A DNA stretch of 64,000 nt from assembly GCF_000969905.1 (NCBI RefSeq), contig NZ_CP009520.1, positions 186,001 through 250,000 on the forward strand, read 5' to 3'. This DNA is from Methanosarcina vacuolata Z-761. Its GTDB lineage: Archaea > Halobacteriota > Methanosarcinia > Methanosarcinales > Methanosarcinaceae. The translations under genes were made by a program, and so were the position numbers. Within the stretch, counting starts at the first letter, position 1. The number at the start of each line of letters is the position of its first letter. Positions 13,529 to 21,420 of the stretch are shown in pieces. Below the pieces are notes generated by a model. The model saw nothing but the letters and a program-made list of their open reading frames with translations. It was not told where the DNA came from and made no database searches.

Positions 13529-13881
13529 TTATATGTACATCTAAAAAGTAGGAGATTTTTTGGAAATATACTATTTGTTGAGTAAATATATGATAACGTT
13601 GACTGAATAACCTCAACATTTAATTTATATCGGTTTCTTATTTATATTTCTCTAGATATTATATTAGATAAATACAATCTCCTTGTTGATACAATTTGAA
13701 ATCACCTTCATTGGCGCGTAAAAGAATTATAAATCAAACAGATGTATATGTAAAATTGTATCAAATTTATCAAAATGTTGAAAGTGGACAAACTCCACAA
13801 ATTCCACAGAAAACAGACCGATATACGTCTACAGAAAAATACGTCCACAGAAAACAAACCAATATACGGGGGAAAAATCAA

Positions 13882-14283
13882 ATGCAGGAAAGTGCTACTG
13901 AAGTACATAATGCGATTCAGAAAGCTTTACAAGCTTTTCAAGATATGAAATATCCTGTTACGAAATGGCAACTTATTGATAAAGCTAAAAGTCTTAATGC
14001 CCGTAACGAAGTAATACAAGCTATTGAAAACATTCCAGACAAGGAATACCACAGCTCTTCGGATGTTCTCCAGGAATTCAAAGGTATTCAGAATGTTATG
14101 CAAGCTTTTAGAGATGTAAAGTTCCCTGCAACAAGGAATCAACTCGTAGAGGAAGCTAAAAAACTTAATGCTCGTAGTGAAGTGATAAACATTCTCGAGT
14201 CTTGTTCAGACCGGGAATACACAAACTTTTCCGATGTCATCAAGGAATGTAAAGGTAAAGGTGAATTGGCAAAGCCGCGGTAA
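13882..14283 (+). CDS. protein of two DUF2795-like repeats
   Basis: The protein consists almost entirely of two copies of a ~55-residue helical unit: MKYPVTKWQLIDKAKSLNAR with DKEYHSSSDVLQEFKG, then VKFPATRNQLVEEAKKLNAR with DREYTNFSDVIKECKG. The pattern (F/Y)PxTxxxLxxxAK...xxEYxxxxDVxxxxxG is that of DUF2795. I start at the ATG at 13882, behind a GGGGGA site, giving 133 residues; a longer frame from 13696 adds 62 low-complexity residues without domain character and is probably not translated. Such proteins are small, soluble and of unknown role, and are often multi-copy in Methanosarcina. The gene is alone and ends before a strong hairpin. Confidence 0.75.
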   Translation: MQESATEVHNAIQKALQAFQDMKYPVTKWQLIDKAKSLNARNEVIQAIENIPDKEYHSSSDVLQEFKGIQNVMQAFRDVKFPATRNQLVEEAKKLNARSEVINILESCSDREYTNFSDVIKECKGKGELAKPR

Positions 14284-15190: not shown

Positions 15191-16672
15191 ATGTCATCAA
15201 AATTGATTGTTCCAGTAGAAACATTTATGTCAACTAAAGGAATAGAACGCTACGTATTTCTGGATAATGAATATTTTACCATCGCTTTTTATGCTTCTGG
15301 CTCAAAATCAGTTTCTTTCTCTAATTCTCATCCAATGTGTAAGGGCAGCTTCCATATTAATATCTTAAATGATGGTGGAAGTTTCTCCTGGACAATCGCT
15401 TATAAAAAACAAGTACTTATAAAGCACTTTGCCGAGATTAATCATTTACTGGGTAATTTATTGAATTCTGACTTAAATAATATGATGTCTACTCAATCAA
15501 TAATCACCCATGATTATGCATTATCATATGGGTTTTATGACTGTGGGAGCAGGTCGATTGAGGTTCATTTGACCAACCATGATCGTTCCTATGTTTACCT
15601 CACCAAAAATTATTCAGAATGGATGAAAGACCTCTCCAGTGAAGAACCTAAGTTTTTGGAAAGACCATTAAACGTATTAGCTTTGCCTGGAGCTCATGAT
15701 GCAGGAATGTTTGAAATCTTCAATCCCGGGTCCATACTTAAAAATAAAGATTTCTTAAATCGAATCCACTCACATTTTAAAGACTCTCTTATGAGTAAAT
15801 CTATGAATTTTTCTGATATTACTGATTATCTTGAGCGAATCATAATTAACATAGCTTGTACGCAAAAAGATGATATTAACACCATGCTTGATCTGGGAAT
15901 CAGGTATTTCGATTTTCGTCCGGGATATTGTTACGGATCTCTTAAGAGCATTCCAGAATTTAAGGGCAAAATTCTCCACCAGCATGGGTTTGTTCCAGGT
16001 TATTCTTACTATGGTTTCTTGTGCGACATATTAAAATGGCTCTCAGAGCATCCCAGTGAAATTGTTGTCGTTAATCTCAACTTCCAGGGCTTTGAAGAAT
16101 CTTCGATGAAACCCAACGCTGACTACCTTATGAGGTTATTATCAGATTCTCAGGTGGCTACTAACACTCTTAATATAGCTATTGGGAATAAGACCGACTT
16201 AAGTGTGATGATTAAACAATTGCTAAATGAAAACAAGCGTTTGATTTTCCTGAACCAGATAGAAGCAAGCTCTAATACGCATAAGTATGAGGCATGTAAG
16301 TACGATTCCTATAATGACAATTATGCGACTACAAACGTGAAGAAAATTCTTACTGTATTGAACCAAATGCGTTTTTATCCGCCAGAAGGTCAAGATTACA
16401 CGGTACTGCAACTTCAAGGTACTGCAACTGCAGATGTAATTGCATGCTCAACATCAGTACTTGATGCAATTGGCCCGTTTAGCAGTGATGCAATGTCTCC
16501 TTTGATGTCAACTAAAGCTGCTTTTGATTACTCAACATATCCCTGGATTATAAATAATGTGCCAGAGAAGTTTTCGCCTAACACTTTATTAGTATTCCTC
16601 AATGACTTTGTTGATAATGCACTTGTCAAGCACTCAATTGATATCACACTCAAGCGGATTTTAGCCTCGTGA
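15191..16672 (+). CDS. PI-PLC X-domain-like phosphodiesterase
   Basis: Residues ~155-480 show the phosphatidylinositol-specific phospholipase C catalytic X-domain pattern. LALPGAHDAGMF carries the first catalytic His (H169), LGIRYFDFRPG has the metal/acid cluster, and ILHQHGF has the second His (H265). HPSEIVVVNLNFQGF is the following family strand. The first ~150 residues form a separate beta-rich domain I do not recognise. There is no signal peptide, so the protein is cytoplasmic unless exported otherwise. GGGAGAAAGT precedes the ATG. Homologues in bacteria act on phosphoinositides or cleave GPI-type anchors; Methanosarcina makes archaetidylinositol lipids, a plausible but unproven substrate. 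It sits in a repeat-rich, gene-poor stretch and may have been acquired. Confidence 0.75.
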   Translation: MSSKLIVPVETFMSTKGIERYVFLDNEYFTIAFYASGSKSVSFSNSHPMCKGSFHINILNDGGSFSWTIAYKKQVLIKHFAEINHLLGNLLNSDLNNMMSTQSIITHDYALSYGFYDCGSRSIEVHLTNHDRSYVYLTKNYSEWMKDLSSEEPKFLERPLNVLALPGAHDAGMFEIFNPGSILKNKDFLNRIHSHFKDSLMSKSMNFSDITDYLERIIINIACTQKDDINTMLDLGIRYFDFRPGYCYGSLKSIPEFKGKILHQHGFVPGYSYYGFLCDILKWLSEHPSEIVVVNLNFQGFEESSMKPNADYLMRLLSDSQVATNTLNIAIGNKTDLSVMIKQLLNENKRLIFLNQIEASSNTHKYEACKYDSYNDNYATTNVKKILTVLNQMRFYPPEGQDYTVLQLQGTATADVIACSTSVLDAIGPFSSDAMSPLMSTKAAFDYSTYPWIINNVPEKFSPNTLLVFLNDFVDNALVKHSIDITLKRILAS

Positions 16673-17188: not shown

Positions 17189-20100
17189 TTAATGCGTCTT
17201 TATGTACTCAATCATGCGCGGAGTCAGCAGAGGAATAAGCTCCGGAAGCATATTCGGCATCAAATTATCCATAGCCTTTGGCATAAGGTCAGGAAGCTGC
17301 TCTCTCATGTAGTCAGGCATAGGAACTTTCTTTTCTACAGCTTTGAGCATATCAGGCATGACTTTCGGCATAACCATCGGCATGAGCCTGGGCATCATAA
17401 TCGGCATCATTGGTTTCATCATGGCATCCATGCCAGGCACATATTTGACCATCTTCATCATTGCCTGAAGTGGTGCTGGCATCGCTGCCATCATCTGGGG
17501 CATGAGTTCAACCATCAGGTTGGTCATATTCTCAGGCTGCATGAGGTCGATCATCTTTTCAAAGGGGACCCACGATTCTAGGGTATAGGAGGTTGAGTCA
17601 GGGATATTGTATCCAAGGCTTCTGCCCACAAGAGCTCCCAGATCCTGAGCCTGGATATTGAGGTTGCCTTCCTTTGCTGCTACACGGAACTGGAAAATAC
17701 AGCAAGGGCAAAGCGCTGCAATAATATCGGCTTTAACATCAAGGGCTTCCTGGAGTCTCATATCTCCCAGTTTGTATGCAACCGGCGGTTCGGCTATAAG
17801 GCTTACAACCGAGCCACAGCAGTGGGCTCTTTCCCGGTTGTACTCAAGTTCCCTGAACTTTATTCCAGGTATAGCTTTGAGCAGTTCTCTGGGCGGTTCG
17901 TATATTTCGCCTCCTGCTCTCCCAAGGTGACAGGAATCATGCCACGCTACCACTTTATCTAGAGGCTGTTTAAACTTTGGCTTGAGGACATCGAGATGAT
18001 CCACGAGCACTTCAGAGTAATGTTTTGCCTCAAGCCCATACTCGATACCCAGCTTTTTCGCCCACTGAGGATAGACCGTATGCCACATGAGCCAGCAGGC
18101 AGGGCAGGAAGTGATTACGGTTTTTACGCCCTTCTTTTTCATGTTTGAGACATTCATTCTCATTATTTTTTCAAAAACGTCCCATCTTCCGGCAACAAGC
18201 ATAGGAATTCCGCAGCAGGCTTCCTTGTCTAAAAGACTTGTAAACTCTACTCCTGCATCATCAAGCATACGGACAGCCCCTATAGCAACGTCATTTTCAA
18301 CAAAGGAGGCTGTACAGCCCGCAAAATAGGCGTATTCGGCTTTATCCTTAATCTTTGCCCTGATATCCTCTGGAACCCATTTATCACGGTCTTTTCTGTA
18401 GTTTGCCCAGATATTTCTTTCTTTTAAGAGGCTTGCTGCCATAATCTCAAAAGGCGGGAAGGTCATCTTCTTCTTTTCCTGGACAAGTTTTCCCCGCATG
18501 GTCATCCAGGCATGTTCGATTGGCATGTCAAGCTCGCAGCGGGAATCGCACATCTGGCAGGTAGTACAAGCAAGGAAAGTATTTGTCTGTCTCTGGTCAA
18601 GTTTTTCCCGGCCTGCCAGGTATTCCTTGATAAAAAACCATTTTCCACGAGGTGACTGCGACTCCCAGCCTCTGCCATAATATTGGTCGCACTCGCTCAC
18701 GCAGTACCCGCACTGAGAACAGGAATAGGCAAGCTCTGCGACTTCTGCAGGGATCTCTTTCTCGTCTTTGAAAGAAACCTTGCCAATTCCGGACATGTTT
18801 CCGGCTATTCTGCCAAATGGTTCAAAGGCAGAGCCCATTGATACTGCAGTGTTCAGAAGCCCTTTTCCCTCCAGGGTTTCAGGGTTCATGATACCGTTAG
18901 GATCAATTTCTTTTCTCAGGGCCTCTATTTCAGCAATTCTTTCACCAAAGACACTTTTTCTCTTTGAAGCGAAGAAAAGCCCTGAAGAATAAGCCCTTCC
19001 ACCATTTTCTTCTGCAATTTTCAAAATGCTCAGGGAAAGAGCAAAAGCTGTATTAAAGAGCACGGAGCGCTCCGAATGGCGCATGAAACAGAGTAAAACC
19101 ACATACCCATCGCTTATAACCATGCCTTCGGTAAGCACAGGCAATTTTATTTTCTTCCCGATTTCTTCAAAAGCACTGTCCATTTTCTCAAGAGGCACCA
19201 GGACTTCTGCCGGGATAAACGAAGGACCCAACCTCTTTACTTTCATGGACTTGAACCATTCATCGGTCTCGTATTTTGCAATTTCTTCCGGAAGGATTGT
19301 CCCACCTGCACCTTCGATTGCTTCCCTCAGACCGGAGACGTCTCTTGAGGCAGGGTACATGAAAGTTGAAACGTAAGATACCGGCAACACTGGTCTGTCT
19401 TTATCCACTATTTCTTCATAGTGGAGTTTCCTGGGCGCTTTATTTTTCATATCCGCCCATTCGGGGTTCAGGAAGGAAATTGACCAGAGAGGGATATTTT
19501 TTCTTTTTATCTCTTCTACTGCCTTTTTCAGGGCTGAAGCGCTTGGGAAACTGACAGAAACAGCTTTTCTCTCTTCGAACTTCTGGACTTTCAGGGTTAT
19601 CTCAGTAATAATCCCTATGGTTCCCATTGTCCCGATTAACTTTTTCAGTTCAGGGCCTGAAAACTCCCGGATCTCTCCTGTGGGAAGCACAACTCTGGCT
19701 TTTTCCATACTCTCGTGGCCCCAGCCAAACTCATAACTTCCATAACCGGCTCCGCTCTGGGACAACCATCCTCCAACTGTCGAAGAAGGAGCGCTTGAAG
19801 GAATTGCTTGTAATGAAAGCTCTTTTTCTTTTAGTTTCCTTTCCAGCTTTTCCCAGATTATACCACTCTGCACAACCGCTTTCTGCCCTTCGGTATCGAT
19901 GCTTATGATATTATTCAGTGGTGTAACATCGGCAACGATCCCTCCTTTTGTTGGAATTACCCCTCCGTATCCTGAAGAGGCTCCCGCGCGGGGTACAACC
20001 GGAATCTTATGCCTGTTTGCGAATTTAAGTAGCTTTACTGCGTCTTCTTCGGTCCGGATTTTTACGACGGCTGCAGGGTTAGTATCCCCAATTACCTTCT

Positions 20101-20236
20101 TAACAAGTGGAGGTAAAGCTCCCATATCGTGGTTGTAATAGTGGCGTTCCCGTTTGTCAAGATTGACATATTCCCCAAAGAGTTCGGAGATTTCTTTTTT
20201 CTGAGCTTCTGAAAGTTCCGCTACGCGACTGGTCAT
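17189..20236 (-). CDS. fused FAD-linked oxidase / iron-sulfur (GlcD-GlcF-like) oxidoreductase with Met-rich tail
   Basis: This 1015-residue protein joins several parts. There is a PCMH-type FAD domain (~55-230, VVPRAGASSGYGGV and SSTVGGWLSQSGAGYGS) and an FAD-oxidase C-terminal domain (~230-460). A two-cluster ferredoxin segment follows (CSQCGYCVSEC ~504, CTTCQMCDSRC ~557). Two CCG modules as in GlcF and HdrB come next (EACCGIPML ~674, SCPACW ~710, HDSCHLG ~767, AHCCGS ~805). The fusion resembles D-lactate or 2-hydroxyacid dehydrogenases of archaea, which pass electrons from an organic acid through clusters to a carrier. The last ~105 residues are unusual: more than 25 methionines in MPxxMPxxM-like spacing. 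No export signal is seen. It lies 200 bases downstream of a NapH-like ferredoxin gene on the same strand. Substrate unknown. Confidence 0.85.
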   Translation of the reverse strand: MTSRVAELSEAQKKEISELFGEYVNLDKRERHYYNHDMGALPPLVKKVIGDTNPAAVVKIRTEEDAVKLLKFANRHKIPVVPRAGASSGYGGVIPTKGGIVADVTPLNNIISIDTEGQKAVVQSGIIWEKLERKLKEKELSLQAIPSSAPSSTVGGWLSQSGAGYGSYEFGWGHESMEKARVVLPTGEIREFSGPELKKLIGTMGTIGIITEITLKVQKFEERKAVSVSFPSASALKKAVEEIKRKNIPLWSISFLNPEWADMKNKAPRKLHYEEIVDKDRPVLPVSYVSTFMYPASRDVSGLREAIEGAGGTILPEEIAKYETDEWFKSMKVKRLGPSFIPAEVLVPLEKMDSAFEEIGKKIKLPVLTEGMVISDGYVVLLCFMRHSERSVLFNTAFALSLSILKIAEENGGRAYSSGLFFASKRKSVFGERIAEIEALRKEIDPNGIMNPETLEGKGLLNTAVSMGSAFEPFGRIAGNMSGIGKVSFKDEKEIPAEVAELAYSCSQCGYCVSECDQYYGRGWESQSPRGKWFFIKEYLAGREKLDQRQTNTFLACTTCQMCDSRCELDMPIEHAWMTMRGKLVQEKKKMTFPPFEIMAASLLKERNIWANYRKDRDKWVPEDIRAKIKDKAEYAYFAGCTASFVENDVAIGAVRMLDDAGVEFTSLLDKEACCGIPMLVAGRWDVFEKIMRMNVSNMKKKGVKTVITSCPACWLMWHTVYPQWAKKLGIEYGLEAKHYSEVLVDHLDVLKPKFKQPLDKVVAWHDSCHLGRAGGEIYEPPRELLKAIPGIKFRELEYNRERAHCCGSVVSLIAEPPVAYKLGDMRLQEALDVKADIIAALCPCCIFQFRVAAKEGNLNIQAQDLGALVGRSLGYNIPDSTSYTLESWVPFEKMIDLMQPENMTNLMVELMPQMMAAMPAPLQAMMKMVKYVPGMDAMMKPMMPIMMPRLMPMVMPKVMPDMLKAVEKKVPMPDYMREQLPDLMPKAMDNLMPNMLPELIPLLTPRMIEYIKTH

Positions 20237-20436: not shown

Positions 20437-21054
20437 TCAAAATTGCAGGGCGTCTTTAGGGCAGACGTCCACACAGCGCCCACATTTGATACAGTCTGGG
20501 TTTGCAGCATCCTGAGTGATTTTGAGCTGCATGGGACAGACTTTTTCACATTTCTTACAGTTAATACATTTTTCCTTTTCGAGTTTAAGAGGATACTTTT
20601 TACCACCAAGCAGGCGTTGAGCTGTCCCCATAGGACAGAAGGAACACCAGGTTCTTGGGCTCAGGTAACTGCCCAGAAGGGTTGCGATTGCAGTTGTTAC
20701 CAGGCACATCATTACAAACACCATGCCGATTTTCTCAAAAGTATTGAGGCTTCCAATAGTGTTTGATATCCTGTATCCCATAAAGCCCATTAGCAGGAAA
20801 AATATTGGCAGGCGGATCGACAGGGACCGCAGAGTGGGGGGTATCTTCTTTTTCCTTGAAATCTTGCTGACCCAGAAATCAACAAAACTTCCCCTGGGAC
20901 AGAGATTTCCGCAGAACCACCGGCCTCTGAAAGGACTAATCAGAAAGAGCGCTGCAAAAACCAGTAGCAAGAAGTATCCGAGTACAGGATACCAGAGCCC
21001 TCCTATGGAAACGATAAGAACTATAATTCCCAGGTAGGGCGTTATTTTAAGCAA
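20437..21054 (-). CDS. NapH-like membrane-bound 4Fe-4S protein
   Basis: A 205-residue membrane ferredoxin. About four transmembrane helices carry two cysteine pairs in the NapH/CcoG style: RWFCGNLCPRGSF after helix 2 and SPRTWCSFCPMGTAQ after helix 4. The C-terminus is a soluble 2[4Fe-4S] ferredoxin: CINCKKCEKVCP and CIKCGRCVDVCP. Such proteins move electrons between a membrane carrier and soluble partners. It starts six bases downstream of an HTH regulator gene and is followed 200 bases later by the large iron-sulfur flavoenzyme, a likely electron-transfer partner. Regulation by the adjacent HTH protein is likely. Confidence 0.85.
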   Translation of the reverse strand: MLKITPYLGIIVLIVSIGGLWYPVLGYFLLLVFAALFLISPFRGRWFCGNLCPRGSFVDFWVSKISRKKKIPPTLRSLSIRLPIFFLLMGFMGYRISNTIGSLNTFEKIGMVFVMMCLVTTAIATLLGSYLSPRTWCSFCPMGTAQRLLGGKKYPLKLEKEKCINCKKCEKVCPMQLKITQDAANPDCIKCGRCVDVCPKDALQF

Positions 21055-21060
21055 AGTGAA

Positions 21061-21420
21061 TCAACCTCCGTTTTCCCATTTGTCAAGTTCCTGTCCGAGC
21101 CTTTCAGCCCAGGAATTCACCACGGTCATGATGATATTTTTTATTTTAGCCCTTGCGTTGACCTTATACTTGAAAATGTAGCCTCCTCCATCCAGATTCT
21201 GCTGCGACCTTTGCAGAATTTCTTTTTCGTGTAGTTTTTTGACGGAGCGCTGGATTGTGGAAATATCCAATTTCAAGACTTTTGAGAGAAACTCAGTGTC
21301 AACCCACTGCTCTTTCTCATTTAAAAAGTACTTCATAACCTTAAGGTCAGCCTTTGTAAGGTTAAGGGCGCACTTGATCACGTCTTCGATTTTGAACTCT
21401 TTACAGGCAAAGTCTATCAT
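21061..21420 (-). CDS. winged-helix transcriptional regulator (MarR/TrmB-like)
   Basis: A 119-residue protein with a single winged-helix domain: LTKADLKVMKYFL, then WVDTEFLSKVLKLDISTIQRSVKKLHEKEILQR as recognition helices, and the wing NLDGGGYIFKYKV. The C-terminal ~35 residues form a helix suited to dimerisation (IIMTVVNSWAERLGQELDKW). Small regulators of this build are common in archaea. It leads an apparent operon with a NapH-like ferredoxin and probably the downstream flavoenzyme. Palindromic ACAGTACTGT and related AGTACTGT copies lie directly upstream and are good candidates for autoregulatory binding sites. Confidence 0.85.
   Translation of the reverse strand: MIDFACKEFKIEDVIKCALNLTKADLKVMKYFLNEKEQWVDTEFLSKVLKLDISTIQRSVKKLHEKEILQRSQQNLDGGGYIFKYKVNARAKIKNIIMTVVNSWAERLGQELDKWENGG

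Follow-up and report, generated by a model that had tools for sequence, protein, structure and literature searches.

What role might a methionine- and proline-rich C-terminal tail have on an otherwise familiar-looking iron-sulfur flavoenzyme? The question is raised by a gene of Methanosarcina vacuolata Z-761 that lies within a stretch of 64,000 nucleotides, here termed the window.

The gene and its modules

The coordinates given for the open reading frame in an initial annotation of this DNA, 17189-20236, hold, with the proviso that they are to be read on the minus strand, from an ATG at 20236 down to 17189, the plus strand of the interval being interrupted by stops. The gene is present in a single copy in the 4.56 Mb source genome. 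Its product has the following layout.

17189-20236, minus strand: flavoenzyme of 1015 aa with FAD, two [4Fe-4S] and two CCG modules and a C-terminal Met/Pro tail
19661-20077, minus strand: FAD_binding_4 domain, residues 54-192 (Pfam E=1.1e-33; D-lactate dehydrogenase fold match)
18524-18724, minus strand: two-[4Fe-4S] ferredoxin module, residues 505-571 (Pfam 4Fe-4S dicluster and Cys pattern)
18086-18334, minus strand: first CCG module, C641, C674C675 and C711xxC714 (Cys pattern)
17684-17950, minus strand: second CCG module, C769, C806C807 and C843xxC846 (Cys pattern)
17192-17584, minus strand: conserved Met/Pro-rich tail, predicted helical, residues 885-1015 (alignment, composition, model)

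That the FAD, ferredoxin and two CCG modules are complete, as initially proposed, is borne out by Pfam matches together with four full Cys sets. Two of these sets are in the ferredoxin module (506/509/512/516 and 557/560/563/567), and each CCG module is complete with the spacing CX31-39CCX35-36CXXC, which we take to be the ligand set of a CCG (noncubane Fe-S) cluster. Pfam CCG is found in two stretches of the protein, as is characteristic of an HdrB-HdrD-type Fe-S protein.

The tail as a conserved domain

The last 130 residues include 30 Met (23%) and 20 Pro; Met makes up 2.9% of the first 885, and at this latter rate the binomial probability of at least 29 Met in 118 residues is 7e-19. MP dipeptides number 10 in the tail and one in the remainder of the protein. 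The tails of 23 relatives are 44-94% identical to it, and the Met/Pro-rich tail to which the initial annotation drew attention is real. The alignment of 24 tails is nearly gap-free and 31 of its 145 columns are invariant. In five within-genus comparisons tail dN/dS is 0.026-0.062, within the range of the catalytic modules, the ratios being rough because dS is high (0.57-1.86). An origin of the tail as a frame artefact is ruled out by the identity among the 23 relatives and the low dN/dS. On the strength of these alignments the tail is a conserved domain under purifying selection and no low-complexity accident, and is judged to have been long maintained by selection. Identity to a bacterial copy, dealt with below, is 60.8% in the tail, 61.9% in the CCG part and 40.2% in the FAD part; the tail thus evolves with the CCG module.

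Known domains were considered for its identity. The tail from the source genome has no match in Pfam-A or NCBIfam up to E 1, in PHROGs up to 0.1 or, by phmmer, among PDB sequences up to 1, and a tail profile (A3) gave weak rows alone against PDB, the best at 0.035. Searching 20 tails against Pfam gave scattered weak rows, the best at 0.0017, with every family matched by at most three of the 20. The M domain of SRP54 is pertinent here since, in likeness to the tail, it is Met-rich and helical; the 14 Pfam families to which any of the 20 tails gave a match at E up to 1 include no SRP family. With the tail-only model Foldseek returned zero PDB matches up to E 10 and two BFVD rows, both worse than E 5. 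Pfam, NCBIfam, PHROGs and PDB accordingly provided no convincing relative in sequence or fold, which is not to say that a missing match proves a new fold. The tail was not found in PLSDB plasmids at 0.01, none of 19 pattern matches in IMG/VR was confirmed, and at the level of titles and abstracts the open-licence PMC literature yielded no description of a Met/Pro tail. The initial remark that no electron-transfer flavoenzyme was known with such a tail agrees with this lack of a convincing domain, fold or literature match: to judge by these searches, a Met/Pro domain on an otherwise recognisable flavin/CCG enzyme is previously undescribed. The counter-possibility raised at the same time, that the domain is widespread and its role already established, holds for spread within the clade and not for the role, as no established one was found.

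Distribution, split and lost forms

Looking for the tail among archaea, as the initial annotation advised, recovers the conserved domain in 66 of 392 genomes of the source's phylum. Methanosarcinaceae account for 57 of these, two other families of the order for five, and distant archaea for four (G107, G137, G165 and G269). For 62 of the 66 genomes the frame that contains the tail is open over 1015-1070 codons, the four exceptions being G107 (split), G039 (two open frames), G004 (a 332-codon fragment) and G006 (a remnant with stops). Occurrence is sporadic in the class of G165, taken to be Archaeoglobi, where two of 59 genomes have it. Named collections contain at least 41 loci, 40 with archaeal titles and one with the title Eubacteriales (the bacterial MAG locus L073), and bacterial spread is under-sampled in this count because the scan of their contigs used a single-protein query.

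In a tree of the catalytic part, under the rooting used, the 24 tail-bearing enzymes form one clade (support 1.00) apart from six tail-less paralogues, which are 33-36% identical and end directly after the CCG part. The placement of the L073 sequence among those of archaea points to transfer. A DUF6951 protein is encoded immediately downstream of this copy (L073:8080-8439), which is flanked on both sides by genes that, by eye, are 2-oxoacid:ferredoxin oxidoreductase-like.

Attention is drawn to two of the exceptional loci.

L121:2977-6050: split enzyme in archaeon G107, with an ArsR-type regulator upstream
L125:7211-7540: tail remnants with stops in Methanosarcina G006, with NapH and the regulator gene intact upstream of them

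The G107 enzyme is encoded by two adjacent genes, one for FAD-ferredoxin (626 aa) and the other for CCG-CCG-tail (398 aa), and with the tail on the CCG gene it follows that the tail belongs with the CCG half. From the remnants in G006, the tailed enzyme is evidently lost there. The homologue in G037 is in two stretches with stops between. An in-frame TGA in distant homologues in G004 and G005 was also considered, and is merely the boundary of separate glcD and glcF genes that are in one frame.

Anatomy of the tail and its methionines

The structure prediction recommended for the tail gave ordered helices, AlphaFold modelling it as all-helical both in the full protein and in a tail-only model. 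The latter has pLDDT 87 and pTM 0.74, with the five models spanning pLDDT 57-87, and in the full-protein model the mean pLDDT of tail blocks is 72-89 from residue 891 onward. Two long helices are predicted.

17327-17431, minus strand: predicted long helix A, residues 936-970 (AlphaFold and Pro register)
17195-17314, minus strand: predicted long helix B, residues 975-1014 in the full model and 981-1014 in the tail-only model (AlphaFold and Pro register)

All five prolines between 945 and 961 in helix A (945/949/953/957/961) are in one strict four-residue register, and a second such register is shared by all seven at 974/982/986/994/998/1002/1006, of which P974 just precedes helix B. Both helices have the four-residue repeat hydrophobic, Met/Leu, Pro, variable, the residue preceding the register prolines being frequently Met or Leu and the variable one often polar (R950, K958, D962, D983, K987, N995, E999 and R1007). 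Across residues 936-1014 the hydrophobic periodicity is strongest at 88 degrees, corresponding to one repeat in about four residues, and two of 1000 shuffles reach this strength; helical moments at 100 degrees have no excess over shuffles (p 0.38 and 0.97). The best 19-residue hydropathy means of 20 tails, 0.68-1.65, reveal no membrane span, and inspection by eye of the remainder of the protein reveals no integral membrane helices. In 22 of 24 tails acidic residues outnumber basic ones, so that no positive patch suited to an anionic membrane is evident.

As to why methionine is used, 28 columns are Met-majority in 20 sequences, and of the 94 replacements in them 93 bring in L, I, F, A or V and the other G. 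Met is invariant in the 20 at 908, 927, 940, 973, 989 and 1008, several are replaced together in the tails of one family (f5, L085-L087), and the tails have almost no Cys or His. This hydrophobic-for-Met pattern favours a hydrophobic surface and disfavours metal, heme or oxidant scavenging; of the roles initially suggested for the methionines, a hydrophobic docking surface stays the best reading.

Comparison with known enzymes

The flavin part shares FAD_binding_4 with GlcD/D-lactate dehydrogenases (VAO-type FAD fold; LDHD, LctD), and its fold matches D-lactate dehydrogenases over 420 residues with Z 27.7 at 2.8 A. HxGDGNxH and EHGxG are His-containing metal/catalytic motifs of D-2-hydroxyacid dehydrogenases. 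HxGDGNxH and (S/G)EHGxG are missing in the tailed enzyme (P0001), yet present in GlcD of the same genome (L133) and in L132, the absence having been checked by alignment with LDHD and in the columns of 33 aligned homologues (a 34th, L100, is a fragment without the region). Hence the initial description as GlcD-type is apt for the fold and does not extend to the D-2-hydroxyacid dehydrogenase motifs. A canonical GlcD (HIGDGN, SEHGIG) and a tail-less GlcF-like gene are encoded elsewhere in that genome, and such pairs are seen at two loci.

L139:3988-6754: canonical GlcD (HIGDGN, SEHG) and tail-less GlcF pair
L137:4869-7537: canonical GlcD (HIGDGN, SEHG) and tail-less GlcF pair

Judged by an adjoining tRNA-ribosyltransferase gene and PMC11619418, the M. 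acetivorans counterpart of the GlcD in the source genome is MA4631, which has been studied as a D-lactate dehydrogenase and to which the L137 copy corresponds. An equation of the tailed enzyme with MA4631 was rejected, the latter being a separate 503-aa GlcD beside an archaeosine tRNA-ribosyltransferase gene. The FAD domain of the tailed enzyme is similar, too, to ADPS and DprE1, which share the fold and act on lipids.

For the CCG part the closest solved relative is mycobacterial EtfD, an ETF:menaquinone oxidoreductase (9ojn; phmmer 1.9e-17), with which VIA-align aligns 365 residues at Z 22.3 and 3.7 A, and a ferredoxin plus two CCG modules are common to both. According to PMC13083937, EtfD clusters carry ETF electrons to menaquinone via a membrane part with heme b, and the protein has five transmembrane helices, heme b and a disordered C-terminus of about 30 kDa. 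The tailed enzyme differs in having an FAD domain, in being without a membrane span, and in having a tail predicted to be ordered. HdrB chains match it at 1.2e-11 to 5.7e-05; HdrB/HdrD have in common with it the full Cys set in both CCG modules, and the difference is its fusion to an FAD domain and tail.

Also comparable are the hdrD-glcD pairs of Archaeoglobi and Verstraetearchaeota, for which oxidation or regeneration of CoM-SH/CoB-SH has been proposed, and which resemble the tailed enzyme in combining a GlcD-type flavoprotein with an HdrD-type protein; the accessible parts of the two sources mention no Met-rich tail (PMC6474303, PMC6783470). PF02249 (mcrA) is in 218 of the 392 genomes, and five of the 66 with a tail are outside this set, namely G067 (94% complete), G107, G137, G165 and G269. 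With mcrA not detected in these, the enzyme appears not to be tied to CoM/CoB or methane metabolism. A strict CoM/CoB link is weakened by the PF02249-negative status of the four tail-bearing archaea from outside the order and, from the other side, by Methanosarcina G014 and G020, where mcrA is present and the tail was not found.

Neighbouring genes

Two genes upstream of the tailed enzyme are relevant.

20437-21054, minus strand: NapH-like membrane ferredoxin
21061-21420, minus strand: winged-helix regulator (Lrs14/Sta1-like), upstream neighbour

With few exceptions this pair precedes the tailed enzyme in those Methanosarcina and Methanococcoides loci that have enough flank, and in Methanolobus, Methanohalophilus and other loci the enzyme is without it. 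G006 retains an intact NapH beside what is left of the enzyme, and NapH was also found in G007, G014, G020 and G035, in which the enzyme was not; conversely, at 1e-40 NapH was not found in tail-bearing G060, G063, G067, G069 and G071, of related families. The occurrence of each without the other means that there are no grounds here for supposing a fixed complex with NapH. This gene, which the initial annotation had read as a hint of membrane docking, is not a stable partner on these counts as well as on its non-adjacency in Methanolobus. No partner gene recurs beside the tailed enzyme across genera, the surroundings in Methanosarcina, Methanolobus, Methanohalophilus and other loci all differing (neighbour names such as pyruvate kinase, thermosome and PFOR-like were assigned by eye from sequence). 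Elsewhere in the window, a plus-strand open reading frame of 493 aa at 15191-16672 resembles, by eye, PI-PLC X domains, with no Pfam match at 0.01, and a 195-aa protein with two DUF2795 stretches, at 13696-14283 on the plus strand, is encoded close to the tailed enzyme at several loci of Methanosarcina.

Candidate roles for the tail

The best explanation, with a probability of roughly 0.38, is that the tail docks the CCG end of the enzyme onto the membrane or a hydrophobic partner. The protein would be a one-chain oxidoreductase with electrons passing, via two cubane clusters, between a flavin site and two Hdr-like CCG clusters. A separate all-helical tail would present a soft Met/Leu face, by which the CCG (electron-exit) end may dock onto a hydrophobic acceptor; the likeliest such acceptor is the cytoplasmic face of the membrane, where a lipid-soluble carrier (methanophenazine or menaquinone) would be reached. 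The tail would then take the role of the membrane helices or membrane subunit in the relatives EtfD and HdrDE. Its position at the putative electron-exit end is by analogy, because the CCG half has its closest structurally solved relative in EtfD, which feeds menaquinone.

Docking is favoured by conservation at the level of the CCG part, the linkage to the CCG half in G107 and the 93 of 94 hydrophobic replacements, and also by the Pro registers, the helical tail-only model and the kinship with EtfD. Docking specifically to membrane is disfavoured by the lack of a membrane span, the ordinary 100-degree moments and the failure of NapH as a conserved partner, and, for simple electrostatic binding, by the slightly acidic nature of most tails (22 of 24). 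An extended version is that the tail would be a new fold, a four-residue Met-Pro helical hairpin acting as a monotopic membrane module, which would connect an FAD/Hdr-type enzyme with the methanophenazine or menaquinone pool without need of a membrane subunit or heme. This version is considered unlikely.

Two rivals account for the same sequence facts as membrane docking. Ranking second after docking, and less likely than not, is a structural or oligomerisation domain, where the hairpin packs on the CCG modules or on its own copy and the Met/Leu face is protein core. The near gap-free family alignment with its 31 of 145 invariant columns, the predicted folding without a partner, and the pLDDT of 72-89 for tail blocks in the full model from residue 891 all suit it, and hydrophobic-for-hydrophobic replacement is typical of a buried core; however, the six paralogues at 33-36% identity stop after the CCG part and are tail-less. 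Decidedly unlikely is that the tail docks an ETF-like flavoprotein, a ferredoxin or another dehydrogenase as a soluble redox partner, with the membrane not being the acceptor. CCG proteins such as EtfD do receive electrons from ETF (PMC13083937), and the location of the L073 gene between 2-oxoacid:ferredoxin oxidoreductase-like genes (by eye) would fit, but the absence of any partner gene recurring alongside across genera does not.

That the tail binds a hydrophobic substrate or product of the flavin site, as would be an isoprenoid lipid or chain, is improbable: the resemblance of the FAD domain to ADPS and DprE1 and the absence of the D-2-hydroxyacid motifs are consistent with it, and against it the split enzyme keeps the tail on the CCG half, away from the FAD half. 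Cu(I) or heme binding, or oxidant scavenging, by the Met residues, as the initial annotation had envisaged, has a very slim chance despite 30 Met in 130 residues and six invariant Met columns in 20 sequences, since most Met columns accept Leu, Ile or Phe, with 93 of 94 replacements hydrophobic, family f5 (L085-L087) swaps several and His and Cys are scarce.

Implications

The orthologue at L138:7812-10862 is presumably the M. acetivorans gene, an assignment supported by the MA4631/MA4632 pair, and the genetic tractability of that organism makes a direct test possible. Should the tail prove to be a docking module for the membrane or a partner, Methanosarcina and related archaea would have an additional, unnoticed point of electron entry or exit at the membrane carrier pool, and the Met-Pro tetrad helix would be an addition to the means by which hydrophobic docking surfaces are known to be made.
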